DNA of 58,683 nucleotides. Source: an uncultured Verrucomicrobia subdivision 3 bacterium. GTDB taxonomy: Bacteria; Verrucomicrobiota; Verrucomicrobiia; Limisphaerales; UBA11358. Both the position numbers and the translations under genes were made by a program. The stretch spans positions 1 to 58,683 of the forward strand of contig CAIPKV010000081.1 in assembly GCA_903865745.1 (NCBI GenBank), written 5' to 3'. How positions within the stretch are numbered: the first letter of the stretch is position 1; each line of letters starts with the position of its first letter. Under the pieces are notes generated by a model. That model saw only the letters and a list, made by a program, of their open reading frames with translations. It did not search any database and was not told the DNA's origin. Shown piece by piece: positions 5,214-58,078 of the stretch.

Positions 5214-5223
5214 GATGGCTTGC

Positions 5224-23478: not shown

Positions 23479-23496
23479 CCCCCCCAAAGATGCCAT
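23479..23496 (+). promoter_or_regulatory. C-tract/AAAGATGCCAT motif, copy 2
   Basis: Seven C followed by AAAGATGCCAT and then AGC. It lies 105 bp before the 1810-aa gene. TAGCGCA (23496-23502) can pair with TGCGTTA (23514-23520), with one G-U pair. The core ATG is followed at once by CCA TAG, so any translation from it would give Met-Pro-stop. Confidence 0.75.
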
Positions 23497-23601: not shown

Positions 23602-26600
23602 ATGAAACTAAACATCAAGCCCCGTCAATACGTCGCCCTGCTGGCAATGGCATTTTTGGCTCTCAGCCTCTGCCGCGGTTCCGCCGCGCTGCTCTGTTAT
23701 GAGCCGTTCGGTCCCACCGGCGGGTTGTCGACCAACCTGCTCAAGGCCACGGCCACGGGCACTGGCTTTGGCGGCGCTTGGACAGGTTCCTCCAGCAACG
23801 GCAGCGGCGGGTTGTTCACCCGCGTCTCCGGTCCGCTGGGCAACTGGCCCCGGAATATCTTCTTTCCCAACCCCAGCGGCGGGCGGGTGCAATACGGTTC
23901 GACGGCTACATGGACGAGTCTGTCCCGCACGATGTCCACGCCCTTGAACTTGCAAAACGCCGGAACGTATTTCATCAGCTTTTTGATGCATGATTATTGC
24001 ACCAGCACCGCCTATTCGGCCGCTGCCAACAACGATAACCGCGTGTTTTTGGGAGACACCAACGACGCGGCCCGGATTTATGTGGGACGCGACCTTAACG
24101 GAGCCAACGTAATCGCGGTGGGAAATAGTTCCACGACCCCATGGAGCCTGCCAAATTACGGCGCGACGGCGACTCCGTGGGAAGGCTGCAACGCCAACTT
24201 TCTGATTTTCGTGGTGGCGCGAATTGTGACCGACGGGGCGGGTAACATGACTGTTAGTGTAAAGCATTACTATTTTGATTCAGTGAATGGCTGGGGTGCC
24301 GTCGTCGATCCCTCGGACGCGAGCGCGGTCTGGGATGCCACTTACACTGGCACGGTCACCGGTTCTGGGGTTTTCAACCAACTCGGGATTTCTTCGGCCG
24401 GAACCCAATACCAAGAACTCAGTGAGATTCGCCTGGGCACCACTTGGGCCGATGTCGCCAACACCACCACACCTACCAACACTCCGTCCACCGGCCTGAT
24501 CAATGTCGCCCTCGGCCCGATCAATCCCGTTGGGGCTTATTCTGGGGCGGGTCCTGTAGCCGGTTCGTTTGGGGATTTCTGGAATCAAGTGGCATTCGGC
24601 ATCACCACGGACGGCACCTACACGTCCAGTCCGCAAACCACCGGCCCGCTCCTTGATGCCGGCGGCATCCAAACGGGGGTGACGGTGCAGGTCGGCACGA
24701 ATACCGCCGACACCTTGGAATGGAACATCGCCAGCGGCGGCAACTACGGCGGTGCCTTCAGTTATTTGGTTGCGGAGACGGTCAGTTTCTTCAAGCCGGA
24801 CGCCATCGTTGTCCATGGTCTGGATAACACCAAATCGTATAACCTATATTGCTTCACCGGTCCCTGGGGCAATTTCAGCCAATGCACGCTTTCCGCCGGC
24901 GGTATAACAAATACCATAGTATCAGACCAGGCATGGTATGTGCCGTGGGATCAGGGGAACCAGTATTGTATTTTTACAAATGTGCCTACCGATGGCGCGG
25001 GCAATCTCACCATCGGCGTGGTCAACCCCGGCAACATCCAACAGCAGATGTGTGGCTTCCAGCTTCAGGCGGTGCCGTTCAGTCTCACCCAGCCGCAAAG
25101 CCAGGTGGTGCCCACGAACAGCACCGTGAATTTGTCCGTGGCCGTATCCGGCGGCAGCGGCGCCCAGTCGTTTCAGTGGCAGAAGAATGTCAGCGGCAAT
25201 TTCGTCAACCTGACCAATGGCGGGAACATTCTGGGCGTGACCACCAGCACGCTGACCACCACCAATGTCCAGGGCACGAATGCGGGCAGTTATCGGGCGG
25301 TGGTCACGGTCGGCAGCCTCGTCACCAACAGCAGCGCCGCGACCATCACATTGCAATCGGGTGTGATCACCAACCAGCTCACCATGGACACTACCAGCAT
25401 CTTTCGCAATCCGTTCACCGGTTTCGCCCTTTATGCCTATGAAAATCAATTCGCCGCCAGCATGTCTAACTACATGCAGAATGCCGGCCAGTTCTGGAGT
25501 CAAGTCAGTGCGCCGCAGGTTCCCTATGCCTCCACCCTTTACCTGCGTGTGATTTGGTCTTACATGGAACCGCAGGAAGGCGTCTATGTCTGGAACACGG
25601 ACACCAATTTCATGGCAATGTGTCAGGGGGCTTGGGCTCGCGGAATCAAGGTGGCCTTTCGGATTTATGTGGTCAGCACGGATCCTGGACAAATGCTGTC
25701 CACGCCTCAATGGGCGTTCGATGCCGGAGTGCCGTCTCATTCGGATCCCAACTCCGGATTGGCTGATCCCGACATCACGAGTCCAATCTTCCAGGCGAAA
25801 TACGCGACCTTCATCAATGCGTTCGGTGCCAAGTTCAACGACCCGTCCAAGGTCATGTATGTGGATGCCACCACCTTTGGTTCCTGGGGCGAGGGGAACG
25901 TGAGCGACCAGTCCTTGAGCACCGCCCAATTGCAGCAGACGATGACTTGGCTGATGACCACCTGGACCAACGCTCTTCCCAAGATTCCGCTGCTGATGAA
26001 TTATCCCAGCGGCACTTGGAGCGATTCGCAAATGGCGAGTTGGTGCTTCAATACGGGCTGCGCCGGCATGCGCCGGGACGGTTTGGGCACGGCGTATGTT
26101 CCCGTCAGCCCGGATCAAAACGACATCCGTGCCGGGTTTCCCGGCAAACCCTTCGTGGCCGAGACCGCCTCGTATTTGAATTCTCCCGCCGATCAGGTTT
26201 ACTTCCTTTCACAGAGGTTGTATATGCATACGGATGTCTCTGATAATTGCATCCCGGTTTTCCAGCAATTGTTCGATCTCTGGGGCGGCTACCGTTTCGT
26301 GGTGAATTCGGTCAGCTATCCTGGCACGGTTCAGGCTAACTCAAACGTCGTCCTGCAGGCCACAGTGCAGAACTGGGGCGTGGGCGTCCTGCCCAACAAC
26401 CTGAAGCCCTGGAACTACAAGTATAAGTTCGCCTATGCACTGCTGGATGCCGCCGGCAACCCGGTTACGACCGTGGTGGACACGTCGCTCGCCGACGACC
26501 CTTCGAACTGGACCAACGGGACGGCTTACAATCCGCCAAATGCAGGAGGCATCCCCACGGACATCATGCAAAATTATTGGTCTTCCGGAAACAGCAAGAC

Positions 26601-29034
26601 CTACACTCTTCAGGTCACCAATAATTTTGGCGCGGTGGTCAATGGCAACTACTATCTGGGCGTCGCAGTGGTCAATACTGCCAATAGCAACAGTGTGGAC
26701 ATTGCGCTGGCGAATACTGCGCCCCGCACCGCGTCGGGCTGGACCGTTGTGGGGCCGGTGGTGGTCAGCAATTCCACGCCGATGACGATCACCACCCAGC
26801 CGCAGCCGGCAGCATTGACCAACTATGTTGGCAACCAGGTTAATTACTCCGTGGTGGTGCTCGGGTCTTCGCTTGCCTACCAGTGGTATCAAGGAGCGTC
26901 ACCGATCAATGGCGCCACCAATGCCGCTTACACGGCGACCACGGTCGCGGGGACCAACACTTACTCTGTGACCGTCAGCGGCGGCGGCAACTCGGTGACG
27001 AGCAGCGTGGTCACGCTGGTTGGGCAGACGTTTACCAAGCCGGCCGGCGGATTTACCGTCAACTTCAACCAGGTGGGTCCAAATGGTGCCTATCAGGGCC
27101 AGGGGGCCTATGGTGATCTAACGGCGAACACCAACTGGAACGCCCTGCCGGTTTCCGGCTCGACCAGTGGCACGGCGAAGAATTCCGCCGGCAGCGCGAC
27201 GCTGGCCACGTTCTCCATCAGCGGCAATAACGGCACGGCCAGCAATTACGGCTCCACGACCCCGTCGAATCCGTGCTTTATGCTGGGGTCATTCGCGGCG
27301 GCCAATTCCGGTCCTTTCACGATCAATTTAAGCTATAATAACGTCCCACCCGGCAGTTATAATCTATACCTGTATTCGCAGAACGGTGCGTGGGGTGGCC
27401 GCGGCGGGTCGTTCTCGCTGGCCGGCGCCACCACCGGCTCGGCCGATCAGGGCGTCAACACTGCCATCAACATCGCCGGCGCCAACTGCTCGCTGACCGA
27501 GGGCGTCAACTATGTCCTATTCACCAACGTGGTGCCGGACGCCACCGGAAAAATCAGCATTACGGAAGTTGCCAACGCCCAGTCCTCGGGCGAAGTGGAT
27601 TTCAACGGCGCGCAACTGGTCTATGCAAGTGCGTTGGTGATCACTGCCCAGCCCCAGCCGGCGCTGACGACCGCCTATGTTGGCAACCCGGTTTATTACT
27701 CCGTCACGGCGGCCAGCACGCTACCACTTTCCTACCAGTGGTATCGGGGAAGCACACCCGTCAGCGGTGCGACCAGTTCCAACTATACCGCCATTGCCGT
27801 TGCGGGAAGCCAGAATTATTCCGTCGTCGTCAGCACCAGCGGTGGCTCGGTGACTAGCAGCGTGGTGACGCTGGTCGGGCAAGGGGCGGGTGCGCTGACC
27901 AATGGTGTGGCCATCAATTTCTGCGCGGACTCGACCGGTCTTGGTGCCTATGCCGGTCAGGGTGCCTATTCTGATCCTTCCAGCACGCCCTTCTGGAACG
28001 TGTTTCCGGGTGGTGGCGCGACCAGTGGGTTGGCCAACGATTCCAGCAACAATCCGACCCTGACCACGTTCACTCTCAGCGCGTATTCATATTATTATTG
28101 GTATGGCGGCGGCGGACCACCGGTCGCCACGGATCCTGATTACCTGCTGGGCGGCTTTGCCTATACCCACAACCCGACGCTTACCATCAGTTACAACAAT
28201 GTTCCGCCCGGAATCTATAAATTATATCTTTATGCACAGGGGGGTTATGGCAGTTGGCGCGGTGGCACTTTTTCTCTGGGGGCAGGCAATGTCGGCAGCG
28301 CCCACAACGGCATCAGCAGTGCCCAAAACACTGGCGGCGACCCCGATGCTTTCATTGAGGGCAACAACTATGTTCTGTTCACCAACGTGGTGCCCGATGC
28401 GTATGGAAACATCACCATCATTGAAACCAATCTTCCGTCGTCGGTCGGCGAGTCGGATTTCAACGGCGCGCAACTAGTCTGGGTGAGTTTGCCGCCCAGT
28501 GCCGTGGCACCGGTCATTACGAACCAGCCGCAAAGCCAGATTGTGCCGCAGGGTGCCACCGTGCAGTTGAGCGTTACCGCCGGCGGCACACCCGCGCCCA
28601 CTTATCGCTGGAGTAAAAACAATGTGAATCTGAACGACGGGGCGACCGGCAACGGCTCCACGTTTACCGGCAGCGCGTCCAATCTGCTGACCTTGGTCAA
28701 CGCGCGGGCGGCCGACAGCGGCAGCTATACCGTGGGCGTCACCAACAGCGCGGGCGGCACCAACAGCAGCGCCGCGCAACTGCTGATGGTCGCGCCTGCA
28801 ACGTCCGGACAGGCGCCGTGGATGACAAACAGCAGTGCGGGCGGGAAATTTGGCCTGTCGTTCACTGAGTTGGCGGGCTACCGCTACCTGTTGCAGCAGA
28901 GCACTAATTTAAGTTCGGGTGCCTGGATCACGATCAGCAACCTGCCGCCGTCGTTCAGCAACAATCTGTTCCAATTCAGCAGCAGCTTTACCAATCAGGC
29001 GAGTTTTTATCGCACGGCTGTAACCAATCAGTGA
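23602..29034 (+). CDS. Giant modular secreted protein with DUF4832-like barrel, Ig-like and repeated ~195-aa modules
   Basis: The 1810-aa protein has a signal peptide (YVALLAMAFLALSLCRGSAA). In order it holds a LamG-like N-terminal domain (~30-290, opening LLCYEPFGPTGG) and a first ~195-aa module (~297-490). Next come an Ig-like domain (~493-585) and a DUF4832-like TIM barrel plus beta-sandwich (~590-1053, with RVIWSYMEPQEGVYVW and GSWGEGNVSD). Then follow Ig-like (~1060), module (~1143-1345), Ig-like (~1347), module (~1432-1630) and a last Ig-like domain. The C-terminal domain (~1735-1810) has LQQSTNLSSGAW and ASFYRTAVTNQ. Module marks are W/FWN, AGQGAY, NNVPPGxYxLYLYAQ and GExDFNGAQLV. The Glu in WGEG could be catalytic, so it may be a surface glycoside hydrolase or glycan-binding protein. 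A motif copy lies 105 bp upstream and a terminator 99 bp downstream. Confidence 0.72.
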   Translation: MKLNIKPRQYVALLAMAFLALSLCRGSAALLCYEPFGPTGGLSTNLLKATATGTGFGGAWTGSSSNGSGGLFTRVSGPLGNWPRNIFFPNPSGGRVQYGSTATWTSLSRTMSTPLNLQNAGTYFISFLMHDYCTSTAYSAAANNDNRVFLGDTNDAARIYVGRDLNGANVIAVGNSSTTPWSLPNYGATATPWEGCNANFLIFVVARIVTDGAGNMTVSVKHYYFDSVNGWGAVVDPSDASAVWDATYTGTVTGSGVFNQLGISSAGTQYQELSEIRLGTTWADVANTTTPTNTPSTGLINVALGPINPVGAYSGAGPVAGSFGDFWNQVAFGITTDGTYTSSPQTTGPLLDAGGIQTGVTVQVGTNTADTLEWNIASGGNYGGAFSYLVAETVSFFKPDAIVVHGLDNTKSYNLYCFTGPWGNFSQCTLSAGGITNTIVSDQAWYVPWDQGNQYCIFTNVPTDGAGNLTIGVVNPGNIQQQMCGFQLQAVPFSLTQPQSQVVPTNSTVNLSVAVSGGSGAQSFQWQKNVSGNFVNLTNGGNILGVTTSTLTTTNVQGTNAGSYRAVVTVGSLVTNSSAATITLQSGVITNQLTMDTTSIFRNPFTGFALYAYENQFAASMSNYMQNAGQFWSQVSAPQVPYASTLYLRVIWSYMEPQEGVYVWNTDTNFMAMCQGAWARGIKVAFRIYVVSTDPGQMLSTPQWAFDAGVPSHSDPNSGLADPDITSPIFQAKYATFINAFGAKFNDPSKVMYVDATTFGSWGEGNVSDQSLSTAQLQQTMTWLMTTWTNALPKIPLLMNYPSGTWSDSQMASWCFNTGCAGMRRDGLGTAYVPVSPDQNDIRAGFPGKPFVAETASYLNSPADQVYFLSQRLYMHTDVSDNCIPVFQQLFDLWGGYRFVVNSVSYPGTVQANSNVVLQATVQNWGVGVLPNNLKPWNYKYKFAYALLDAAGNPVTTVVDTSLADDPSNWTNGTAYNPPNAGGIPTDIMQNYWSSGNSKTYTLQVTNNFGAVVNGNYYLGVAVVNTANSNSVDIALANTAPRTASGWTVVGPVVVSNSTPMTITTQPQPAALTNYVGNQVNYSVVVLGSSLAYQWYQGASPINGATNAAYTATTVAGTNTYSVTVSGGGNSVTSSVVTLVGQTFTKPAGGFTVNFNQVGPNGAYQGQGAYGDLTANTNWNALPVSGSTSGTAKNSAGSATLATFSISGNNGTASNYGSTTPSNPCFMLGSFAAANSGPFTINLSYNNVPPGSYNLYLYSQNGAWGGRGGSFSLAGATTGSADQGVNTAINIAGANCSLTEGVNYVLFTNVVPDATGKISITEVANAQSSGEVDFNGAQLVYASALVITAQPQPALTTAYVGNPVYYSVTAASTLPLSYQWYRGSTPVSGATSSNYTAIAVAGSQNYSVVVSTSGGSVTSSVVTLVGQGAGALTNGVAINFCADSTGLGAYAGQGAYSDPSSTPFWNVFPGGGATSGLANDSSNNPTLTTFTLSAYSYYYWYGGGGPPVATDPDYLLGGFAYTHNPTLTISYNNVPPGIYKLYLYAQGGYGSWRGGTFSLGAGNVGSAHNGISSAQNTGGDPDAFIEGNNYVLFTNVVPDAYGNITIIETNLPSSVGESDFNGAQLVWVSLPPSAVAPVITNQPQSQIVPQGATVQLSVTAGGTPAPTYRWSKNNVNLNDGATGNGSTFTGSASNLLTLVNARAADSGSYTVGVTNSAGGTNSSAAQLLMVAPATSGQAPWMTNSSAGGKFGLSFTELAGYRYLLQQSTNLSSGAWITISNLPPSFSNNLFQFSSSFTNQASFYRTAVTNQ
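27925..28480 (+). repeat. Module repeat, copy A (near-identical to 31640-32195)
   Basis: This part of the 1810-aa gene matches 31640-32195 in the 914-aa gene almost base for base over long stretches, for example GCCTATGCCGGTCAGGGTGC and the run encoding NDSSNNPTLTTFTLSAYSYY. Differences are concentrated at third positions and a few short blocks. This indicates recent duplication or gene conversion between the two neighbouring genes. Confidence 0.8.
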
Positions 29035-29132
29035 GCGGGCGAGTTGCGATTGCACATTCCAGTCCGTTGCGCGGCGGGCTTATCGGGATGCATGTTTGAG
29101 TTGGTCGGCGGGACATTCCGGTATGCAGAGTT

Positions 29133-29163
29133 GCCCGGTCAGGAATTAAAACCCTGACCGGGC
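29133..29163 (+). terminator. Hairpin terminator after the 1810-aa gene
   Basis: A perfect 11-bp inverted repeat, GCCCGGTCAGG (29133-29143) and CCTGACCGGGC (29153-29163), with a 9-nt A-rich loop lies 99 bp after the stop. There is no long T-run, so termination may be weaker than canonical, but the stem is strong. Confidence 0.65.
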
Positions 29164-29212
29164 TGGGTTGTGGAAAAAACGGACGCCAGCTAACTGCAAA
29201 ATTCATTTTACA

Positions 29213-29482
29213 ATGGGTTCTTTGAAAACCCGGATTTGCGGGGGAAATGTCTTTGATTTGTTTGAACGAGAAAGTGGGCGGAGCGTCGGTTCTGCCGCCT
29301 GCCCTGATCACCATTTTTCACCTTCAACTCGACTTTTCCCCGCACTCACGGCGGAACTCGGTGCGTTGAGCGCCTTTGATCAACAGTTCTGCGAAGTTAT
29401 TTCGCGCACCGATCTGGGCCGCTTCACCCGCCGTTACGAATGGCGCGGCGACGATTGCCCGCCGCACCAACGCGGTGAAGGG
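29213..29482 (+). pseudogene. Remnant of a DDE transposase N-terminus
   Basis: The frame from ATG 29213 contains LTAELGALSAFDQQFC, then a short helix, RFTRRYEWRG and CPPHQR. This order (DQQFC, then RF..Y.W.G, then PPH.R) is what I expect at the start of IS1182/IS5-like transposases, just before their conserved AFLAKA segment. Here it is followed immediately by the C-tract motif and unrelated sequence, so the gene is broken after about 90 codons. Recognition is by pattern only. Confidence 0.45.
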
Positions 29483-29495
29483 GTGGCATCCGATA

Positions 29496-29514
29496 CCCCC
29501 CCCAAAGATGCCAT
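29496..29514 (+). promoter_or_regulatory. C-tract/AAAGATGCCAT motif, copy 3
   Basis: Eight C followed by AAAGATGCCAT, 117 bp before the 914-aa gene and directly after a transposase remnant. I found no convincing stem next to this copy beyond a short ATATT/AATAT pairing. Frames that read through the motif here are not credible genes. Confidence 0.75.
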
Positions 29515-29630
29515 ATTCAAAGCGACGGGGCTGTGTTAATATTTCAATCATCAGCCGTAACTATCAATCAAATTAAACCTATTATTGTTCCGGCTTCGGA
29601 TTCGTTGAAAAATCGAAACAAACTAAAAAA

Positions 29631-32375
29631 ATGAAAACCATCAAATCATTTAGAAACACCGCTCTGGCGGCTGCAGCCCTGCTGGCGCTGACTGCCTCCA
29701 ACAGTCAAGGCGCACTGCTGTGCTATGAACCGTTCACCAACGGGACAAGCGGCGACATCACCACTTTAACACCCTCCACCGGGTCCGGCTTCTCCGCCGA
29801 CTGGGTTCTGGGCGCCAGCGGGGCTAGTGGCACCTCTTTCCAATGCGTCCCCGGTGGCGGCAATTTCGCCAACGGCTGGCCAAATAATGTGAGTTTTGCC
29901 GCGCCCAGCGGGGAAGCGCAATCCGGCCAATCATGGGATTGGGGCTCCGCTAACCGCACCCTGTCCGCCCCGCTGAACCTGAGTGCGGCCGGAACTTATT
30001 ATTTGAGCTATCTGTTCAACGATACGGCTAATAATTATGACATGAGCGTGTTTATTAGCAGCACGGCAAATAACGAGGCTATTTACATGGGTCCCGGCTA
30101 TGGCACCGCCGTGGTTCACGCCGGCGGTCCGTTAACAACAGCGCCATTTAATGGTTTGCCAGCTAATGTCGGTGCTCCCTCCTCGTGGGAAGGCACATCT
30201 GGCACCTCCTTGGTTTTTGTCGTGGCCCAGATTACGTCCGACGGGGCGGGCAATGTCACGGTCAAAATGAAACACTATGCTTATGATCCGGTCGCCCACA
30301 CGGGCGGCTTGGTGGATCTCACCCCGGGCAGTGTCGCTTGGGAGGCAACCTATACTGGCGCCATGGGTGTGGCGTATGATCAATTGGGCGTTTCCGCAGC
30401 GGGTCCTCAAGGCGAGGCGCTCACCGAAATCCGCCTGGGCACCAATTGGACCGAGGTCACCGGCGCCCAGAACATAACGGCGATCACCACCCAGCCCCAG
30501 CCGGCCTCCGCAACCGTCTATGTCGGCAATGGGTTTGATTATTCGGTCACCGCCGTTGGCGATGCGCTCACCTATCAGTGGTATAAAGATGCTGCGCCCG
30601 TCAGCGGCGCGACCAATGCCAGTTACGCGGCCACCGCTGCAAACGGGGTTACGGACAGCTACTCGGTGGTGGTCACCGGGACCGCCGGTTCCGTTACCAG
30701 CAGCGTAGTGACGCTAACGGGAACGGCCTTGCCAACGATCAGCGCTCCGTTCGCGATCAACTTCTGTCAGGATAACCTTGGTGCTGCTTATCAAGGTCAG
30801 GGTGCCTATACCGATCCCCTGACCAGCACTCCAACCTGGAACCTGTTCCCGGGTGGCGGTTCTTATTCCGGTGTGGCCGTTGATTCCACGGGCAACCCGA
30901 CCCTTACCACTTTCTTTATCAGCCCGTATGCCTATTATGGTTGGTATAGTGGTGCCACCCGGGCCATCACGGATCCGTATTACCTGCTGGGCGGCTTTGC
31001 CCACAGCTCCGCGCTGACCTACAGTTTCAACAATGTTGCGCCGGGCGTTTACAGCCTGTATCTCGTTGCCCAGGGTGGTGATGGCAGTTGGCGCGGTGGG
31101 TCCTTCTCGCTGGCCGCCGCGAATGGTGGCAGCGCGGATGGTGGCGTCACCGTCGCCTTTAATGCCGGTCAAGCCCCCAATAGTTTCATCAAGGGTCAAA
31201 ACTATGTGCGGTTCAATGGTGTGGTGCCCGATGCGAATGGTAACATCACCATCACCGAAACGGCACCCCCGCAGAATGCTGGCGAGGCCGATTTCAATGG
31301 CGCACAACTGGTGTGGACGGCCGCCGCGATTACCAAGCCGTTGATTACGACCCAACCCCAACCTGCCAGCCAGACGCTTTATGCTGGTTACCAGGCGGCA
31401 CCTTATTCCGTGGCGGCCATTGGGCCGGTTGGTGACCCATTGTCATACCAATGGTATCAGGGTTCTTCGCCGGTCACCGGGGCGACCAATGCCAACTATA
31501 CCGCCACCGCCATTGTCGGAGCCAATAATTATTCGGTGGTGATTTCGGACATCTACGGCTCGGTGACGAGCAGCATCGTGACACTGACCGGGGTGGCGGC
31601 TCCTTCCACAGCCCATTCATCGGGGGTTGCGGTCAACTTCAGCGCAGACGCTGTGGGGCTCGGAGCCTATGCCGGTCAGGGTGCCTATACTGATCCTTCC
31701 AGCACACCCTTCTGGAACACGTTTCCGGCTGGTGGCATGGCGAGTGGATTGGCCAACGATTCCAGCAATAATCCGACCCTGACCACGTTCACTCTCAGCG
31801 CGTATTCATATTATTCTTGGTTCGGCGGCGGCGGACCGCCGGTGGCCACGGATCCCGATTACATGCTCGGCGGTTTCGCCCACGGCGTGACGCTGACCTA
31901 CAGTTACAACAATGTCCCGCCCGGAATTTACAACCTGTATATTTATGCCCAGGGTGGTTATGGCAGCTGGCGTGGTGGCACCTTTTCTCTGGGGGCAGGC
32001 AATGGCGGCGGCGCACACAACGGCATCAGCAGCGCCCAAAACAACGGCACTGACCCCGATGCTTTCATCGAGGGCCAAAACTATGTGCAGTTCACTAACG
32101 TGATGCCCGATGCGTTTGGTAACATAACCATCAACCAAACGGCACCCCCGTTGACCGCTGGCGAGGCCGATTTCAATGGCATCCAATTGGTTCAGGGCGG
32201 GGTTCCAATCTTGAACTGGTCGCATACTGGTTCCGGGCTGATTCTAAATTGGAGCGTGGGAACCTTGTTGCAAGCTGACAACGTGACCGGCCCGTGGACG
32301 ACGGCCACCGGCGTGACGGCAGGCGTGCCGATTCCAACCACTGCTCCCAAGCGGTTTTACCGGCTGCAATACTGA
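29631..32375 (+). CDS. Modular secreted protein (Ig-like plus two repeated modules), paralogue of the 1810-aa protein
   Basis: The 914-aa product has a signal peptide (TALAAAALLALTASNSQGA) and the same LamG-like opening LLCYEPFTNG as its larger neighbour. In order come the N-terminal domain (~28-280), Ig-like (~282-365), module (~372-565), Ig-like (~567-655), and module (~663-855). The C-terminal domain (~856-914) has LLQADNVTGPW and ends RFYRLQY. It lacks the DUF4832-like barrel, so no catalytic domain is apparent; a glycan-binding or cell-surface structural role is more likely. Its second module is nearly identical in DNA to the last module of the 1810-aa gene. A motif copy lies 117 bp upstream and a strong terminator 37 bp downstream, so it is probably a single-gene unit. 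Confidence 0.72.
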   Translation: MKTIKSFRNTALAAAALLALTASNSQGALLCYEPFTNGTSGDITTLTPSTGSGFSADWVLGASGASGTSFQCVPGGGNFANGWPNNVSFAAPSGEAQSGQSWDWGSANRTLSAPLNLSAAGTYYLSYLFNDTANNYDMSVFISSTANNEAIYMGPGYGTAVVHAGGPLTTAPFNGLPANVGAPSSWEGTSGTSLVFVVAQITSDGAGNVTVKMKHYAYDPVAHTGGLVDLTPGSVAWEATYTGAMGVAYDQLGVSAAGPQGEALTEIRLGTNWTEVTGAQNITAITTQPQPASATVYVGNGFDYSVTAVGDALTYQWYKDAAPVSGATNASYAATAANGVTDSYSVVVTGTAGSVTSSVVTLTGTALPTISAPFAINFCQDNLGAAYQGQGAYTDPLTSTPTWNLFPGGGSYSGVAVDSTGNPTLTTFFISPYAYYGWYSGATRAITDPYYLLGGFAHSSALTYSFNNVAPGVYSLYLVAQGGDGSWRGGSFSLAAANGGSADGGVTVAFNAGQAPNSFIKGQNYVRFNGVVPDANGNITITETAPPQNAGEADFNGAQLVWTAAAITKPLITTQPQPASQTLYAGYQAAPYSVAAIGPVGDPLSYQWYQGSSPVTGATNANYTATAIVGANNYSVVISDIYGSVTSSIVTLTGVAAPSTAHSSGVAVNFSADAVGLGAYAGQGAYTDPSSTPFWNTFPAGGMASGLANDSSNNPTLTTFTLSAYSYYSWFGGGGPPVATDPDYMLGGFAHGVTLTYSYNNVPPGIYNLYIYAQGGYGSWRGGTFSLGAGNGGGAHNGISSAQNNGTDPDAFIEGQNYVQFTNVMPDAFGNITINQTAPPLTAGEADFNGIQLVQGGVPILNWSHTGSGLILNWSVGTLLQADNVTGPWTTATGVTAGVPIPTTAPKRFYRLQY
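31640..32195 (+). repeat. Module repeat, copy B (near-identical to 27925-28480)
   Basis: This is the second member of the duplicated module pair and encodes the same GQGAYTDPSSTPFWN and YNNVPPGIYNLYIYAQGG signatures. The distance between copies is about 3.7 kb, in direct orientation, so recombination between them could delete the gene boundary and fuse the two proteins. Confidence 0.8.
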
Positions 32376-35604: not shown

Positions 35605-35709
35605 CCACGCTTTAGGACCTGGTAACACTGATTGACAATCGCAGGGTTTGAGGGGTTGTGGCCTTGCTTCCGGTTGACTCCATTGCAAGTGATTGCTAAA
35701 TTTTGGCTA

Positions 35710-38700
35710 GTGTCCTGCAAACTGTCATTTCTTGGAGTTGGACGTCTTTTTGTGTTGCCGTCATTGGTGCTTGGGCTTGCTGGTCCGGTGTCTTTCCAAA
35801 TGGTTGCAGCCGCCCAATCTTCTCCGTTCGTTGTGCAAACCTGGCAGACCGAAAACGGCCTGCCCCACAACTTGTTGACCGACGTGATTCAGGGCGGGGA
35901 AGGTTACCTGTGGATAGGCACTTTCAACGGACTGGCGCGGTTCGACGGCACACGATTCACGGTGTTTAATCCTGAAAACACGCCCGAACTGGCGGACAGT
36001 TGGATTGATCATTTGTTCACCACGCCCGATGGCACCCTGTGGATTGGCACTCATCACGGTGGCTTAAGCTCGTTTCGCGCCGGGCGTTTTGCGTGCGAAC
36101 TTCCGGTGCGCCTGGACGAGGATTGGGTGGTTAAATACCTCGGTCAGCGCACGAATGAATTTCTCTTTCTCACTATGGCCGGCCGCGTCGCCTGCGGCCG
36201 GCCGGGAGCGATGCGCGTGCTGGATCTGCCCGCCGAGGAACAACGGAGTGCCGTCATGGATGGCGAGGGCGTGGTCTGGTTTTTCCGGCCAGGCTGGTTG
36301 GAAGGCAGTTTGACGAACCATCAATTCGAGCCATTCACGAATGCGCCGGGGCTGGCCGATCTGCGTTGCAATGATCTGACTGTAGACGCGGCCGGCCGGG
36401 TCTGGGCTGGCACGGACGAGGGTTTGTGGGTTTGGAAAAACCAGCGGTTTGTCCGGATCTGGCCCACTGCCGGCGAGCTCCCGGTAGCGGTGAACCACAT
36501 TTATCCCCGCCAAGACGGAAGTTTGTGGGTCAGCGCCAACGGTCGGCTGCGTCAATGGCGGAACCACGACTGGGTAGCGGAAGCCGACGCGGACTGGCCG
36601 CCATTCCAAACCCCGGTGAGCACCATCTGCGAAGATCAGCGCGGCAACCTATGGTTCGGCACTGCGGGTGAAGGTCTCTGGCGGTTGGCCCCGGATGGTC
36701 ACCTGCTGCACGTTGGTTCGGCGCAGGGTTTGCCCAACGACCGGATCGCTGGCTTGTGCTTGGATGTGGAGGACAATCTCTGGGTGGCACTGGATCGCGG
36801 GGGTCTGGCCCGGGTGCGGCCACGCCGTTTCTCGGTGGTCCGCACCTCACCTGAGGCGGCTGAACCCGCCGCCGTCTCGGTCTGTCAAGACCAGACCGGC
36901 ACCATTTGGGTTGGCACCTATGGTGCCGGCTTGGTTGGCGTGGAATCCAATCGTATTACCCATTACACCTCGGGGCGAGACGGGGACGGCAACTTGGATT
37001 TCGCGACGGGCGGTTCCAAGGGCGAAGTGATGTCCGTGCTGGCGGATCGGGAGGGTCGCGTTTGGGCGGGCACGGAAATCCGTGGGGTTTTTCGGCTCAC
37101 CAACGGCGTTTTCGCCACGCCGTTTGCCCTCAGTGACATTGGGTGGCAGGCCCGCGTCATTTACGAGGATCACTTGGGGCGCATTTGGTTTGGCAATTCG
37201 CTGGGTCTCTACCTCTGGAATAACGGCCACCTTGAAGCTTGTCATCCGCCCGCCGGCGTGTCCCGGCTGGAGGTGCGCGCCATTCTGGATGATGGCGCGG
37301 GCGGTGTCTGGGTGGGAACCCGAGAAAAGGGTTTTTATCATTTCCAAGACGGCCAATGGCGCTCATGGCATAGCGCTGACGGTCTGGGCAGTGACACAAT
37401 CTGGACCATTTATGCCGATGATCAAAAGGCGTTGTGGCTCGGCACCCAGACTGGGCTGGTGTGGTTCAAGGATGGCCGGTTTGTGCGGCTGACCACGGGT
37501 GACGGGCTGCCAGCAGACGCGATTTACTGCCTGATGGGGGACGGCCACGGCTGGCTATGGGCCACCTCGCCAAAAGGGGTTTTTCGGATGAAACTGGACG
37601 AGTTGAATGCCTTTGTAAGGAGAGATGTTTCCGAGGTCAATTGCCTCGACTATGATCGTTCCGACGGGCTGCCGACCCTGCAATGTTCCGTCGGCTCCCA
37701 GCCTGCCGGCTGGCGGAACGATGAAGGAAAGCTCTGGTTCACGACCGAGAAGGGAGTGGTGGGATTGGATCCCGCCGGATTGACCCGCAACCCGCGCCCG
37801 CCGCCCGTGATCATTGAGGCGATGAAAGTGGATCAAATAGTTCAGTCGCTGCCGTTGCCGGCCGCCGCCGCGTCGGCGGGAATTACTCCGCCCGCCTTGA
37901 GCCCCATCCGGATCGCTCCGGGTCGCCAGAGTCTTGAGTTCACGTTCGCCGCCCTCAGTTTTACCGCGCCGGAAAAAGTGCGGGTTCGCTACCGGGTCGA
38001 AGGCCTGGAAACCAAATGGTTCGACGCCGGCGAACAGCGTTCGGCCCATTACAGCAGCCTGCCGCCGGGTGATTACAGCTTCCATGTTATCGCCTGCAAC
38101 GATGAGGGAGTCTGGAACGACGCCGGCGCCACCTTGGCCTTCGTGGTGCTGCCGTGGTTTTGGCAGACGGTCTGGTTCAAGGTGGTCTCCGGCCTGGCAG
38201 TGGTGGGCGTGGCTGTGACTTTGGTGCGGAACCTCGAGCGCCGCCGTGCTCGCGGCAAACTGGCCGTGCTGGAGCGCGAGCGGGAGCTGGACCACGAACG
38301 CGCCCGCATCGCGCGCGACATTCATGATGACCTGGGTGCCAGCGTCACCCAGGTGGCGTTTCTGGGAGATTTGACCGGACGTTCGGCTGATCGGCCGGAA
38401 GCGGTTCGCAGGCACAGCCAGCACATTGCCGCCACCGCGCGGGAAATGGCCCAATCCTTGGACGCCATCGTCTGGGCCGTCAAACCGGCAAACGACACGC
38501 TGCTCAAGCTGATCGAGTATCTCCACCGCCGCACCAATGAACTGCTGGAAAATCTTCTCGGCCGTTACACCTTCGCCGCGCCGCCGCAGATTCCTGAACG
38601 CGTCGTTTCGGCGGAGTTGCGCCACAACGTGTTTCTCGCGTATAAGGAGGCGTTGACCAACATCCTCAAACACGCGCAGGCCAGCGAGGTCGCCATCCGC

Positions 38701-38919
38701 ATTGCCCTGGACGCCGACACACTGCAGATTGGCATCCGCGACAACGGGCGCGGGTTCGACCCGGCGGGCGGCCAGACGGACCGGTCCGGCCAGCAGAACA
38801 TGCGCCGGCGGCTGGAAGAAATCGGCGGCACCTTTGAAGTCATCAGCCAGCCCGGCCAGGGCACTACTTTGAAAATGCACATTCCCCTCGCCGCCCGTCC
38901 GCCCATTCCAAAAATTTGA
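35710..38919 (+). CDS. Propeller-type sensor histidine kinase (Reg_prop, Y_Y_Y, HisKA_3)
   Basis: About 1069 aa from a GTG at 35710; GTG 35689 and TTG 35632 are alternatives, and no ATG fits. The region opens with a signal/anchor segment, then a large periplasmic double beta-propeller built of two-component-regulator repeats (VQTWQTENGLPHN, GYLWIGTFNGLARFDG, GTLWIGTHHGGL and many more, to ~residue 680). A Y_Y_Y domain (~700-810, YRVEGLETKWFDAG) is followed by one TM helix (~813-842). HisKA_3 has the phospho-acceptor in IARDIHDDLGASV near residue 869, and an HATPase domain has IRDNGRGFDP near 1010. Such sensors usually bind oligosaccharides from the polymer being degraded. The response regulator starts 3 bp after the stop. 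Confidence 0.9.
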   Translation: MSCKLSFLGVGRLFVLPSLVLGLAGPVSFQMVAAAQSSPFVVQTWQTENGLPHNLLTDVIQGGEGYLWIGTFNGLARFDGTRFTVFNPENTPELADSWIDHLFTTPDGTLWIGTHHGGLSSFRAGRFACELPVRLDEDWVVKYLGQRTNEFLFLTMAGRVACGRPGAMRVLDLPAEEQRSAVMDGEGVVWFFRPGWLEGSLTNHQFEPFTNAPGLADLRCNDLTVDAAGRVWAGTDEGLWVWKNQRFVRIWPTAGELPVAVNHIYPRQDGSLWVSANGRLRQWRNHDWVAEADADWPPFQTPVSTICEDQRGNLWFGTAGEGLWRLAPDGHLLHVGSAQGLPNDRIAGLCLDVEDNLWVALDRGGLARVRPRRFSVVRTSPEAAEPAAVSVCQDQTGTIWVGTYGAGLVGVESNRITHYTSGRDGDGNLDFATGGSKGEVMSVLADREGRVWAGTEIRGVFRLTNGVFATPFALSDIGWQARVIYEDHLGRIWFGNSLGLYLWNNGHLEACHPPAGVSRLEVRAILDDGAGGVWVGTREKGFYHFQDGQWRSWHSADGLGSDTIWTIYADDQKALWLGTQTGLVWFKDGRFVRLTTGDGLPADAIYCLMGDGHGWLWATSPKGVFRMKLDELNAFVRRDVSEVNCLDYDRSDGLPTLQCSVGSQPAGWRNDEGKLWFTTEKGVVGLDPAGLTRNPRPPPVIIEAMKVDQIVQSLPLPAAAASAGITPPALSPIRIAPGRQSLEFTFAALSFTAPEKVRVRYRVEGLETKWFDAGEQRSAHYSSLPPGDYSFHVIACNDEGVWNDAGATLAFVVLPWFWQTVWFKVVSGLAVVGVAVTLVRNLERRRARGKLAVLERERELDHERARIARDIHDDLGASVTQVAFLGDLTGRSADRPEAVRRHSQHIAATAREMAQSLDAIVWAVKPANDTLLKLIEYLHRRTNELLENLLGRYTFAAPPQIPERVVSAELRHNVFLAYKEALTNILKHAQASEVAIRIALDADTLQIGIRDNGRGFDPAGGQTDRSGQQNMRRRLEEIGGTFEVISQPGQGTTLKMHIPLAARPPIPKI

Positions 38920-38922
38920 TTT

Positions 38923-39612
38923 ATGTCCGCACCGCACCGCCACAAACCCGTCGCGAAAGACGTCGTCGCGTCCAAGGCTAAGACTGACCAACTGCAGGTG
39001 TGCATGGTCGAGGATGACGCCCGGTTACGCGAAACGCTGGGCGATTTCATCAACCAGTCAGAACATTTCCGCTGCCTCCGGACCTTTCCGGATGGTGAAA
39101 GCGCGCTGGCGGAATTGCCCCGGCTCAAACCGGATTTGCTCCTCATGGACGTGCGCCTGCCCGGCATGTCTGGCATCGAGTGCGTCCGCGCGATCAAGAC
39201 CTTGCTGCCCAACTTGCCCGTGGTGATGCTTACGGCGTTCGACGAGGAGGATTTCCTATTTGATTCCCTGAAGGCGGGCGCCAACGGCTATCTGCTCAAG
39301 CGCACTCCCGGCCCGAAGATGCTGGAAGCGCTGCAGGAAGCCTGTCTGGGCGGCCTGCCCCTCGCCCCCTACATGGCGGCCAAGGTGGGCGATTACTTTA
39401 AACACCTCGCCCGGCCGGATGCCGGCATTGAAACCTTGACCCAGCGCGAGCAGGAGGCGGTTCAACTACTGGCTGAGGGCTTTCGTTACAAGGAAATCGC
39501 CGAGCGCATGGGCATCGGGCTCGACACCGTGCGCAAGCACGTCCGGAGCATCTACCAGAAACTGCACGTCAGCTCCCGGACGGAGGCGGTCGTAAAATAC
39601 CTGCGCCGCTAA
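38923..39612 (+). CDS. LuxR/NarL-family response regulator, partner of the preceding kinase
   Basis: The 229-aa product has a receiver domain after a ~25-aa basic N-terminal extension: acidic pair VEDDARLRE, phospho-acceptor Asp in LLMDVRLPGMSG near residue 75, VMLTAF and GYLLKRTPG. A C-terminal helix-turn-helix of LuxR type follows (LTQREQEAVQLLAEGFRYKE, DTVRKHVRSIYQKL). It starts 3 bp after the kinase stop, so the two are certainly co-transcribed. LuxR-type regulators bind as dimers to short inverted repeats. It is the only DNA-binding regulator in the window, which makes it the first candidate for control of the C-tract motif genes, although that motif is not an obvious inverted repeat. 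Confidence 0.93.
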   Translation: MSAPHRHKPVAKDVVASKAKTDQLQVCMVEDDARLRETLGDFINQSEHFRCLRTFPDGESALAELPRLKPDLLLMDVRLPGMSGIECVRAIKTLLPNLPVVMLTAFDEEDFLFDSLKAGANGYLLKRTPGPKMLEALQEACLGGLPLAPYMAAKVGDYFKHLARPDAGIETLTQREQEAVQLLAEGFRYKEIAERMGIGLDTVRKHVRSIYQKLHVSSRTEAVVKYLRR

Positions 39613-40117: not shown

Positions 40118-42292
40118 TTATTTCTGGTCCCAGATGGATTTCAGTCGAAAGACTTTCAGCGAGCGAATGGTGGAGCCAACGGCGGCGGTTAGCTTTGTTT
40201 CGGTGGAGTCAAAGCCATTGAGCGGGCGCTTCCGGAGTTCGTAGGAAATGCCATCGTCGGCGTAGATTTCGTTGAAAGTGCGGTCGGTGAAAATGCGGGC
40301 GCTGCGACCATCGAAGCTGGCGTCAATGCCGTTGACGACGAGTTGTTTCGGCCCGGCAGCGGCAAACTCGATGAGCACTTCGCTCAACTCGCCCTGACAC
40401 TTCTGGAGCAGTTCGTTCGCCTGCACAGGCGTGAGGTCTTTGCCTTCGGCGAGCACTTCGCCTCGAAGTTTTTCGAGTTCTTTGACCGGTGTATAGAAGA
40501 CGCGCAAGCCGTCCTTCGTCTCGCGCAGCGTCAGCTCGTGCGCGAGCGTGAAACCCTGGCTCACGATCTGATCGGGAAACCGTTTTGCGTAGCCGTCCGG
40601 GTCCGCAGTCGCCCAGCCGATTTGAATCCGGCGACCGTCCGGCACATCGCTGAACGTCTCTGCGGCGTAGAAGGCGCCGTGCTGAGTGCCGTGCGGGCCG
40701 GACTCCTTGTGAAAAGTTTTACCGTCGAACTGGCCGATGAAATAACGGTTCTGCGCGGCCTGTATTATCCAGCGGGACTCGCCGGGGTTGCCGGCAACCG
40801 GCAGCTCGAACATATCCGGACACTCATACACCGCCCCGCGATCGGAGTCGGTGAAAGCGCCGACGCGTGTCCACTGCCGCAGGTTTTTCGATTCATAGAA
40901 AGCGAGATTGTTATTGGCCCGCATCTTTTCATTGGCGGGCGGCACCGCCGCCGTTTCAGCGCAAGGGGATTCATCAAACACCACCATCACCCATTTCTGC
41001 TCGGGCTGATACCAGAGGATTTTGGGATCGCGACCCTGGTGTTTCACGACGGGATTTTCCGGCAGCTCGGAGAAAGTCAGTCCGCCATCCTTGCTGTAGA
41101 CGAGACACTCGCCGCGCCCGGTGCTGGTGAAGGCGGCGAATTGCGTGTCCTTCCCCAGCCCCGCAGTATCGTGGTGATCCACGAAGCCGCCGCCGGACCA
41201 CGCCGCATCTCCTGTCGTGCGTTGATAGAGCGCGATGGGCTTTTCCTGCCAATGTATGAGATCGGTGCTCTCGAGGTGACCCCAGTGCATGTTGCCCCAA
41301 CCGATGCCGAAGGGGTTGTATTGATAGTAGAGATGGAATTTGCCGCCGGCGAAAACCATGCCGTTCGGATCATTGTTCCATCCCCGCCGCGTGCTCGCGT
41401 GAAACTGATTCCGGTAAGGCTTTGCATAATCATCCGCCGCCAGCGCCTCCGATGCCGATTCGATCTTGATGCGATCAAAAGCCGCGCGGCAGGACTCCGG
41501 CACCTTCTGGCCATCCGCGGTTGCGAGCTTGATCTGCTTTCCCTTCAATCCGAAGTGCTCCAGCGGATATGCCGCGAGCCATGCCGCATCATGGTTCTGC
41601 GGCAGCCCCACCGTGAAATTCTGCACCAGCGTGTCGCCGTCGTAGATGCCCAGCAAGATTATGTTGCCGCTCGACTCCTTCGCCGCATTCGACACCGGCA
41701 CAATGAGATAGTCGCCATCCACCGTCAGTGTTTTTTCCAAAGCCACCAGCACCGGCGCCACCGGGGGCTTCACATCCGTCTGCACGATCTGATCCACATT
41801 GATGTGCCCCCAGCCACCTTTGCGTTGATCCACAATTTGTATCACCGCCTGCCGCCCCGCAAGCTCCGCCACATCCCAACCCGTCGGTTCGAGTTTCTCC
41901 GTGCCGCCGGGCGACGTGTTCGGTCCCGTGGCGGTGCGGACGACCCTGCCATCCACGAGCAGATTCATGCACGTCTCGTTGGCGTATCCGCCGCCACCGA
42001 TGAGAAAGCTGATGAACTTCCGCTCGATTTTGAACGGCGGCGAGGTGAGTTTGCCGGTGGCGTCATCGCCACCATTGAACGAGTTAACCAACCCCTTGCC
42101 CAGAAAGCCTTCGACAATCATTTGGCCAATGAGCGCGCCGTGTGCCGGCCCAGTGCCAAAGGCACCGCCTTCCACTTTCCACGCGCCGTAAGTCGTGGAC
42201 TCGAAGTCGGCTAGCACGATGTCGTCGGCGGCGTAAAGCCCCGCCAGCGGTGCCAGCAGCAAGGCGGTAAGAGGGATAAGAAGGCGCTTCAT
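40118..42292 (-). CDS. Secreted GH32 levanase-type enzyme with N-terminal accessory domains
   Basis: The 724-aa protein has a signal peptide (RLLIPLTALLLAPLAGLYA). Residues ~25-165 form a beta-sandwich (VLADFESTTYGAWKVEGGAF, FLIGGGGYANETCMNLLVDG) common in bacterial levanases. Residues ~175-285 resemble the DUF4980 domain that precedes GH32. The catalytic part has GWNNDPNGMVF (nucleophile Asp, near residue 305), GRDPKILW and YECPDMFELP (acid/base Glu). The C-terminal sandwich ends with IRSLKVFRLKSIW. The product most likely acts on levan or inulin outside the cytoplasm. No motif copy lies upstream; the pseudopilin at 42438-43241 is 145 bp upstream in the same direction and may be co-transcribed. 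Confidence 0.92.
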   Translation of the reverse strand: MKRLLIPLTALLLAPLAGLYAADDIVLADFESTTYGAWKVEGGAFGTGPAHGALIGQMIVEGFLGKGLVNSFNGGDDATGKLTSPPFKIERKFISFLIGGGGYANETCMNLLVDGRVVRTATGPNTSPGGTEKLEPTGWDVAELAGRQAVIQIVDQRKGGWGHINVDQIVQTDVKPPVAPVLVALEKTLTVDGDYLIVPVSNAAKESSGNIILLGIYDGDTLVQNFTVGLPQNHDAAWLAAYPLEHFGLKGKQIKLATADGQKVPESCRAAFDRIKIESASEALAADDYAKPYRNQFHASTRRGWNNDPNGMVFAGGKFHLYYQYNPFGIGWGNMHWGHLESTDLIHWQEKPIALYQRTTGDAAWSGGGFVDHHDTAGLGKDTQFAAFTSTGRGECLVYSKDGGLTFSELPENPVVKHQGRDPKILWYQPEQKWVMVVFDESPCAETAAVPPANEKMRANNNLAFYESKNLRQWTRVGAFTDSDRGAVYECPDMFELPVAGNPGESRWIIQAAQNRYFIGQFDGKTFHKESGPHGTQHGAFYAAETFSDVPDGRRIQIGWATADPDGYAKRFPDQIVSQGFTLAHELTLRETKDGLRVFYTPVKELEKLRGEVLAEGKDLTPVQANELLQKCQGELSEVLIEFAAAGPKQLVVNGIDASFDGRSARIFTDRTFNEIYADDGISYELRKRPLNGFDSTETKLTAAVGSTIRSLKVFRLKSIWDQK

Positions 42293-45026: not shown

Positions 45027-45047
45027 ATGGCATCTTTTGGGGGGGGG
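45027..45047 (-). promoter_or_regulatory. C-tract/AAAGATGCCAT motif, copy 6 (one extra A)
   Basis: On the minus strand: nine C, then AAAAGATGCCAT, with four A instead of three. It ends 61 bp before the GTG of the GH172-like gene (49 bp before the TTG). I found no clear stem, though an AAAGATATCTTT palindrome lies 30 bp downstream. Confidence 0.7.
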
Positions 45048-45212
45048 CTGCCCGAAACCTTACCCAGAACATTGCAACTTGTGAACCTCATTCTTTTTAG
45101 AAAGTAGTTCTGAATGAAAATCTTACATAATTGCCGGCGTGATTATGCAGTAAATCTCCAAGTCCCTTAGTCCTATTTTTGCACACGCTCTGGAAGGATT
45201 CGTCTGGTTAAC

Positions 45213-45254
45213 TCGTAAATCGTAAATCGTAAATCGTAAATCGTAAATCGTAAT
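45213..45254 (+). repeat. Six-copy 7-bp tandem repeat (TCGTAAA)
   Basis: Five perfect TCGTAAA units plus a sixth ending TCGTAAT end 8 bp before the C-tract of motif copy 7. A four-unit degenerate version occupies the same place before copy 8 (49982-50009). Such a tract can change length by slippage. Confidence 0.9.
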
Positions 45255-45262
45255 TTCGCCTA

Positions 45263-45279: not shown

Positions 45280-45346
45280 GGCATTTTAAATCGCATTGAG
45301 CTATGTTTCACCAATTCAAGATCAAAGCTCGGATAAAATGCCATGG
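45276..45346 (+). repeat. 13-bp inverted repeat joining the motif to the start region
   Basis: CCATGGCATTTTA (45276-45288) is the exact reverse complement of TAAAATGCCATGG (45334-45346), with 45 nt between. The second arm covers the first possible start codon (ATG 45343) and ends 6 nt before the ATG at 45352, so a folded mRNA would hide the ribosome binding region. Confidence 0.8.
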
Positions 45347-45351
45347 AATAC

Positions 45352-49968: not shown

Positions 49969-49981
49969 GGTTTTTTTAAAA

Positions 49982-50009
49982 TCGTAATTCGTAAATCGCA
50001 AATCGTAAT
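49982..50009 (+). repeat. Degenerate 7-bp repeat tract before motif copy 8
   Basis: Four units: TCGTAAT, TCGTAAA, TCGCAAA, TCGTAAT. The tract begins 13 bp after the GH32 autotransporter-like gene and ends 4 bp before the C-tract. Same unit as 45213-45254. Confidence 0.8.
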
Positions 50010-50013
50010 TTCA

Positions 50014-50032
50014 CCCCCCCCAAAGATGCCAT
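50014..50032 (+). promoter_or_regulatory. C-tract/AAAGATGCCAT motif, copy 8
   Basis: Eight C followed by AAAGATGCCAT, 124 bp before the truncated module gene at 50157. A short stem, CGTC (50035-50038) with GACG (50045-50048), follows. Confidence 0.72.
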
Positions 50033-50156: not shown

Positions 50157-50648
50157 ATGAAAAATAAAATCCTGATACTCATCGCCTTGATGCTGGGATA
50201 CTTCAGCCAGGCCAACGCCCAGACCGTCAACTTTTGCGCCACCAGTTATTCGGGGGCCGGTGCTGACGCCGCCGGAAACGAGACCTGGAATACCATTACT
50301 AGGGCCGGCACCACCAGTTCCTGCAAAACATCCACGGGAAGTTCGACAGCGGTGACCTTTATTGACAATTCACCGGGACAGTATTCTGGTTGTAATTCGG
50401 GTGGACTGGGTTTGGGTTCCCGTCATCAAGACCGGTGCTTGGGGTTCCGGTTTGGGTGGATGGGTGGCGGCGTTGAGGGGTTGACGCCGCCACTCGAATT
50501 CAGATGGAAAATTATTCGGAAACCGCATTACTCAATTAACCGGACACGCGTGATTCAGGATCAAAAAATGATGGCAACCAAAGCTGGAGATGAATTTATT
50601 TCTGAATTAACGGCCCAAGGCAACTTTCTGCGCTTGCTTGCCCATTAA
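50157..50648 (+). CDS. Truncated module gene (signal peptide plus module start, then unrelated sequence)
   Basis: The 163-aa frame begins with a signal peptide (KILILIALMLGYFSQANAQ). About 60 residues resembling the start of the ~195-aa module follow (VNFCATSYSGAGADAAGNET, WNTITRAGTTSS, TAVTF). From about residue 82 the sequence loses all resemblance to the module and becomes basic and low in family character, ending at a stop after a GC-rich hairpin. This looks like a module protein whose 3' part was replaced or deleted. The signal peptide and the upstream motif copy remain. Whether the short product is made or useful is unknown. Confidence 0.5.
   Translation: MKNKILILIALMLGYFSQANAQTVNFCATSYSGAGADAAGNETWNTITRAGTTSSCKTSTGSSTAVTFIDNSPGQYSGCNSGGLGLGSRHQDRCLGFRFGWMGGGVEGLTPPLEFRWKIIRKPHYSINRTRVIQDQKMMATKAGDEFISELTAQGNFLRLLAH
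50464..50493 (+). terminator. GC-rich hairpin inside the truncated gene
   Basis: GTGGCGGCGT pairs perfectly with ACGCCGCCAC around a 10-nt loop. There is no T-run after it. Its position inside the open frame but after the module part ends suggests it may once have been the terminator of a shorter gene, or part of inserted DNA. Confidence 0.4.
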
Positions 50649-57400: not shown

Positions 57401-58038
57401 GTTCTCATTGTCACTTTTATTAGGAAAACCCGTTTATAACACCCTGCGATATCCTCCGACTCCCCATCGCCATCTTCTGGCCAGCCATCGCCGTCAGCAC
57501 CGCGCCGCCGCCGCCGATCTCTAAGCGCGCGCCCAAGGCCATGCCCAAACCGTGTCACCGACCCATCCCGCGGCAACCATTACTCCCCCCCAAAGATGCA
57601 GCAAGGCCATGGTGGCAACAATTTTGTCTCTTGTGTGCCTTCATCGGTTTGATGCTCTCGAATCCTCATTTTTGATCATTCACCATTACGAAGAAGGGAT
57701 GACACTCTAGTCGCCAGCAATGACCTTCGATTGCTGATAAACTCGCTAAATGCGGGTCTGTTCTTGATGATATCCGGTGGTATAAAATATTTCTCAGGTG
57801 CCGCTTTGAGACTTTTGCCAAATGCTTCCATGGCCAGTCATGTCGGAGTTGTTTGTTAGCCCTCTGGCAAGTGATGACTCTGTTGGTGACTTGGTTGATT
57901 TCATCATACTCAAATCCTCCATCCTTTAGGCGCTTGCGTTTGCCCCATGCCATAAGGGTGATGGCACTGTGAGAAGAATGCCGGGTCCGGCGGTGCCAGT
58001 GCCTGCCAGTTGCATGGTTCCACCCTGGATCACGGTTG
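57401..58038. other. Long intergenic stretch with a degenerate motif copy
   Basis: The 638 bp between the lipoprotein and the last motif copy hold no gene I can support. A minus-strand frame (57666-57952, opening MAWGKRKRLKDGGFEYDEIN) has ordinary composition but no recognisable family and no clear ribosome binding site; it may be a decayed gene. A degenerate motif copy lies at 57585-57599. Confidence 0.5.
57585..57599 (+). promoter_or_regulatory. Degenerate C-tract motif (copy 9)
   Basis: Seven C followed by AAAGATGC, then AGCAAGG instead of CATAGC. No gene starts within 500 bp downstream except the one served by copy 10. It appears to be a decayed site left after loss of its gene. Confidence 0.5.
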
Positions 58039-58078
58039 CCCCCCAAAGATGCCATAGCAATTTGCTGTCAGATGGCAT
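58039..58078 (+). promoter_or_regulatory. C-tract/AAAGATGCCAT motif with hairpin, copy 10
   Basis: Six C followed by AAAGATGCCAT (58039-58055). ATGCCAT (58049-58055) pairs with ATGGCAT (58072-58078), and inside it AGCA (58056-58059) pairs with TGCT (58063-58066), leaving a 5-nt bulge. The structure ends 63 bp before the ATG of the next gene. The core ATG is followed by CCA TAG. Confidence 0.8.

Follow-up and report, generated by a model that had tools for sequence, protein, structure and literature searches.

The analysed window is the whole of contig C81 (58,683 bases), which belongs to a 3.6-Mb draft genome of 87 contigs. It encodes two secreted proteins, P0001 and P0002, in which a module of about 195 residues is repeated (Table 1). 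P0001 consists of an N-terminal domain, module 1, an immunoglobulin-like (Ig-like) domain, a DUF4832-type region, an Ig-like domain, module A, an Ig-like domain, module B, an Ig-like domain and a C-terminal domain. P0002 is built in the order N-terminal domain, Ig-like domain, module C, Ig-like domain, module D and C-terminal domain; no catalytic domain was found in it. The DUF4832-type region of P0001 matches its model with 22.2 bits, against a cut-off of 29.2, and would be glycosidase-like.

Table 1. Modules, associated genes and C-tract sites of the window
Feature	Position	Strand	Basis or remark
GH32-type gene	3726-5339	-	sequence only
GH27-type alpha-galactosidase	21828		
C-tract CCCCCCAAAGATG(CCATA), upstream of 1810-aa gene	23480..23492	+	
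P0001, secreted multidomain gene, 1810 aa	23602..29034	+	signal-peptide-like start
Module copy 1 (diverged), P0001	24484..25074	+	independent profile; AlphaFold fold
Putative TIM-barrel glycosidase-like region, P0001, approximate boundaries	25390..26787	+	DUF4832 match below cut-off
Ig-like domain, starts ITTQPQPA, P0001	26788..27042	+	sequence
Module copy A, P0001	27043..27621	+	identity to B; profile
Ig-like domain, starts VITAQPQPA, P0001	27637..27891	+	sequence
Module copy B, P0001, used for first structure model	27892..28482	+	identity, profile, fold
C-tract, upstream of 914-aa gene	29498..29510	+	
P0002, secreted gene, 914 aa	29631..32375	+	signal-peptide-like start
Module copy C, P0002	30735..31316	+	identity to B; profile
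Module copy D, P0002, 79% identical to copy B	31611..32195	+	identity; profile
GDSL esterase	33285		
GH43	34303		
Sensor histidine kinase: Reg_prop propeller, Y_Y_Y, HisKA_3, HATPase	35632..38919	+	
LuxR-type response regulator, candidate reader of C-tract	38923..39612	+	
GH32-type gene	40118-42292	-	Pfam
GH32-type gene	45343-49968	+	Pfam
C-tract, upstream of remnant module gene	50016..50028	+	
Remnant gene: signal peptide and first ~73 module positions	50157..50432	+	profile
GH2	50722		
C-tract, upstream of IS-split gene	58039..58051	+	
5' part of module gene: signal peptide and half of diverged module, continued on C5	58142..58545	+	
Left end of IS3-like element at contig end	58546..58683	+	boundary within few bases
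Further C-tract sites in the window	20171 (minus), 33275, 34237, 45263, 57586		

The four close copies score 311–359 bits against their own profile, and those other than D are 47–62% identical to copy B. This profile does not detect the diverged copy 1, which was recovered at a domain E of 3e-10 (37.6 bits) with a 25-sequence profile built without it; the best reversed decoy in the same search reached 4.0 bits. The original prediction of a repeated secreted module, present three times in P0001 and twice in P0002, is right if the diverged copy is counted, and the alternation with Ig-like domains, which start with TTQPQPA or AQPQPA, is real. The motifs proposed for the module need minor correction: copies A and C read QGQGAY in place of AGQGAY, and copy D ends in NGIQLV. 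Copies B and D are 78.6% identical in DNA over 753 bases; the repeats have therefore had time to diverge and do not stem from an assembly artefact.

Three genes preceded by the C-tract share an N-terminal domain of some 255 aa (ALLCYEPF ... LTEIRLGTTW; 23686–24456, 29712–30458 and, on contig C5, L019 7721–8560). It has no Pfam match in P0001 or P0002 and looks as if it may be a concanavalin-type lectin domain. Seven secreted proteins were compared at their C-termini, namely P0001, P0002, the product of 45343–49968 and four proteins of C5 (L019). Most of them end in a similar stretch of about 70 aa (QxSTNL...W...FYRL-like), which is possibly a sorting or anchoring signal. The combination of a PEP motif, a hydrophobic stretch and a basic tail is absent, on inspection by eye, from the C-termini of P0001 and P0002.

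Two further copies had been described as truncated. The copy at 50157 is indeed a remnant, keeping model positions 2–73 and losing homology beyond them. The copy at 58142, in contrast, belongs to a longer gene; its reading as a short gene is ruled out by an IS3-like element, which cuts it at about 58541, and by the presence of its second half on C5. The TIR of the element reads TGATTGGGCCCC at the left end, near 58546, and TGCTTGGACCCC, as the reverse complement, at the right end, which lies at the start of C5 (L019:1–96); CAGG flanks both outer sides. The end of the element recurs at 17 places across the genome, of which several are contig ends. C81 carries model positions 9–98 of the split module and C5 positions 108–198. 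The shared ends of the element, the complementary module halves and the occurrence of the C-tract elsewhere only on C5 indicate that the two contigs are very probably neighbours in the genome. The split gene has the order module, module, Ig-like domain, a region resembling the DUF4832-type region of P0001, Ig-like domain and C-terminal domain, and is very probably a relative of the 1810-aa gene. Two further module proteins are encoded on C5: a GH28 protein, in which the module is C-terminal, and a PATR-type protein of 2284 aa.

The modules lie within a glycan locus. Besides the glycosidase and esterase genes of Table 1, C81 carries a PfkB kinase, sugar transporters, a GH42-like gene and mannan-type enzymes, all recognised by sequence only; the C5 side adds GH28. 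Pseudopilin-like genes are scattered through the locus (32458, 42438, 55921, 19277 and C5 (L019) 3272), some of them directly 3' of module genes. Their abundance and the PEP-CTERM relatives of the module would fit a member of the Verrucomicrobia.

The genome contains 12 copies of the motif CCCCCCAAAGATG, as a rule with CCAT directly after it; all lie on C81 or C5, mostly within about 150 bases 5' of genes for secreted proteins. When one mismatch is allowed, the window contains 10 matches, with 0.09 expected by chance. As had been claimed, the C-tract is found at all four module genes; it also precedes GH32 and GH43 genes. The site at 57586–57598 is without the CCAT extension and has no obvious intact gene behind it. 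A one-mismatch form, CCCCCAAAAGATGCCAT, at 45031–45043 on the minus strand, stands upstream of a run of genes on that strand which leads to the PfkB kinase, and is possibly a weaker site. Short tandem copies of AAATCGT lie right 5' of two C-tract sites (45203–45262 and 49975–50015).

The LuxR-type response regulator encoded in the window has relatives of 65–66% identity in only three of 49 congeners (G037, G043 and G038); the next best is 54% identical. The site TACCCCCCAAA[G/C]ATG was found, among the same congeners, in exactly these three and in G000, the four of the 49 with a regulator at least 65% identical, always on the contig of the regulator, and at none of three control loci with regulators 47–54% identical. 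The chance of a random set of 4 of 49 coinciding is 1 in 211,876, a figure that is indicative only because both the identity cut of 65% and the G/C alternative in the pattern were set after the data had been seen. The regulator locus of G037 contains GH78, GH95, GH2 and GH43-like genes. This co-occurrence suggests that the C-tract is probably the binding site of the LuxR-type regulator and that the module genes probably belong to its regulon.

Relatives of the module are present in 14 of the 49 congeners (E up to 1e-5, in a search started from five close sequences) and, across the phylum, in 40 of 388 genomes, representing 28 of 198 genera (27-member profile, E up to 1e-6). The module, which had been considered seemingly new, is therefore no novelty of the source genome. 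A back-translated pattern scan of named genomes found one relative, in a MAG titled Verrucomicrobia; profile searches are preferred, since patterns of this kind cannot cover the diversity of the family. A plasmid search gave no match. Stand-alone members are secreted proteins of roughly 235–305 aa, many with a PEP-CTERM-like end (VPEP...RRRR); such anchors were seen by eye in relatives including L031, L065 and L066. Other members sit within large proteins, alongside Laminin_G_3, Ig, fn3, F5/8C, CBM35 and CBM6 domains. Residues G22, W35, N36, G73, Y109, G157, F163 and Q194 (copy B numbering) are invariant or nearly invariant and are read as mostly structural; no acidic residue is invariant across the family.

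None of the 27 members matches a Pfam or NCBIfam model at its cut-off, the best E being 3e-4 for Pfam and 0.07 for NCBIfam. PF11721 is not among the matches of any of the 27 at E up to 1, and none of them has a Pfam match to CBM6. Y_Y_Y (PF07495) and fn3_3 (PF14686) were rejected as the identity of the module, as they cover 20–30 residues around NNVPPGxYxLYLYAQ; single copies reach 15–20 bits, against cut-offs of 24.4–26.6, and two stretches of the whole 1810-aa protein total 30.7 bits. A PDB sequence search returned only chance-level matches to a FimD usher and two-component proteins. No published description of the module was found in the literature searched, chiefly freely accessible papers. 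The family is real and widespread and has no name in Pfam or NCBIfam; in this respect the earlier opinion that the module could not be named stands, while the predicted fold and deep profile comparison point to kinship with malectin.

Malectin is a sugar-binding domain. The AlphaFold model of copy B (pLDDT 89.4, pTM 0.89) has weak Foldseek matches, mostly to CBMs. In full alignment with VIA-align, its highest Z scores are to the C-terminal domain of Bacteroides uniformis beta-glucuronidase (11.5) and to Bacillus subtilis YxiM (11.5), followed by FERONIA (10.9), ANX2 (10.3) and human malectin (9.5; 149 aa, 3.4 Å); single CBM domains score 6–8.3. The model of the diverged copy (pLDDT 83.6) gives a Z of 12.4 with FERONIA, 12.3 with ANX2, 12.1 with YxiM and 11.6 with human malectin (144 residues, 2.6 Å), the next matches being CBMs at 9.4 and below. 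The two models are not fully independent, as most of their alignments are in common. The fold of the module is predicted with confidence to be a malectin-type β-sandwich, which agrees with the β-sandwich originally proposed. The comparison with carbohydrate-binding modules suggested along with it was sensible; malectin-type structures outrank the ordinary ones.

Profile comparison points in the same direction. A malectin profile was built from 17 bacterial malectin domains of the same class of bacteria. Its hhalign alignment to a 64-module profile reaches 60% (P 8.6e-5) over 140 columns, end to end, and 64% with the roles of the two profiles swapped; a smaller, 27-sequence module profile gives a weak 6.6%. 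In the controls, CBM6 reaches 2.3%, reversed profiles 0.1% and 40 column shuffles at most 0.5%. The 64-sequence result, taken with its controls, makes remote homology of the module to malectin likely. By the curated model, the module falls outside PF11721.

The module shares with malectin (PF11721; CBM57) its predicted fold, an end-to-end profile alignment and a secreted glycan context, and true malectins are also found in the same class of bacteria. However, the malectin hallmarks LHFxE, GxRxFDVxxxG and DIWxxAGG are absent from the module, its N-terminal half is longer and contains a WN motif, and it ends in GxNYVxF / NGxQLV. The malectin-like ectodomains of FERONIA and ANXUR give the highest or near-highest Z with both models (10–12.4), but they are tandem domains of plants, with an identity to the module of only 10–14%. 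The N-terminal domain of YxiM and the C-terminal domain of B. uniformis beta-glucuronidase 2 are attached to carbohydrate-type enzymes; they are 7–15% identical to the module and are single domains in other proteins. CBM35, CBM36, CBM22 and CBM6 belong to the same broad β-sandwich class and bind plant polysaccharides, but their Z is lower (about 6–8.6), they are shorter, and CBM6 has no profile match.

As a whole, these data are probably best explained by a secreted malectin-like family of non-catalytic glycan binders under the control of a sugar-sensing kinase and a LuxR-type regulator. Its fold, secretion, gene neighbours and domain partners make a non-catalytic carbohydrate-binding module the most likely identity of the repeat. 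In the malectin-like domains of plant ANXUR receptors the fold is preserved but the sugar-binding residues are missing, and no binding of oligosaccharides was detected (ANXUR1; PMC6038381); a malectin-type fold alone therefore shows no function.

The strongest competing explanation is a structural or adhesive role, in which the repeats would bind proteins or a surface polymer of the cell itself instead of the substrate glycan, on the model of the malectin-like domains of plant receptors. The CrRLK1L domains of plants, which have the fold without detectable oligosaccharide binding, set a precedent for it; the alternation with Ig-like domains is that of adhesins, and the stand-alone PEP-CTERM copies could be matrix proteins. 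The modules co-occur, however, with glycoside hydrolases and known CBMs in several genomes, and the C-tract is common to module, GH32 and GH43 genes; adhesive repeats appear unlikely. It is highly improbable that the module is itself catalytic, or an accessory needed for the activity of a neighbouring glycosidase domain: its fusions with a GH28 protein and with a DUF4832-type region speak for such a role, but its best structural matches are non-catalytic domains, the family has no invariant acidic residue, and most copies do not adjoin a recognised catalytic domain. There is equally little to recommend an existing CBM family of the CBM6/35/36 type that has diverged too far for its models; MiXBM, CBM35, CBM36 and CBM6 are among the top bacterial Foldseek matches of copy B, but malectin-type structures stand about 2–4 Z units above CBM35/36/6 in full alignment for both models, and hhalign separates the CBM6 profile (2.3%) from malectin (60%).

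Under the glycan-binding explanation, the module proteins probably help the cell to grip plant-type sugars that are digested by the products of neighbouring genes. Their ligand is probably one of the plant-type glycans on which the locus acts, with fructan and pectin as the obvious candidates. Two to three modules per protein, carried on Ig-like spacers and accompanied by the lectin-like N-terminal domain, would hold the protein to its target polysaccharide. The 914-aa protein would then be a pure binder, and the 1810-aa protein and the GH28 protein of C5 would deliver a linked glycosidase-like domain. The Reg_prop/Y_Y_Y histidine kinase would sense the sugar and its LuxR-type partner would act at the C-tract, whereupon the module proteins would be made.

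More tentatively, and with somewhat less confidence than doubt, the family may be a major glycan-binding family of Verrucomicrobiota, perhaps of wider distribution, which combines the malectin fold with a binding site of its own and acts as multivalent secreted anchors under a dedicated two-component system with the DNA site TACCCCCCAAASATG. If this is true, that site can be read directly from sequence. Polysaccharide loci of this group have been little studied, and the pairing of regulator and motif gives computational access to one of its sugar regulons. A domain that roughly one in ten of the phylum's sampled genomes carries gains a predicted fold, a likely ancestry and a function open to testing; with this fold and ancestry, many secreted 'hypothetical proteins' of polysaccharide degraders can be annotated as probable glycan binders.
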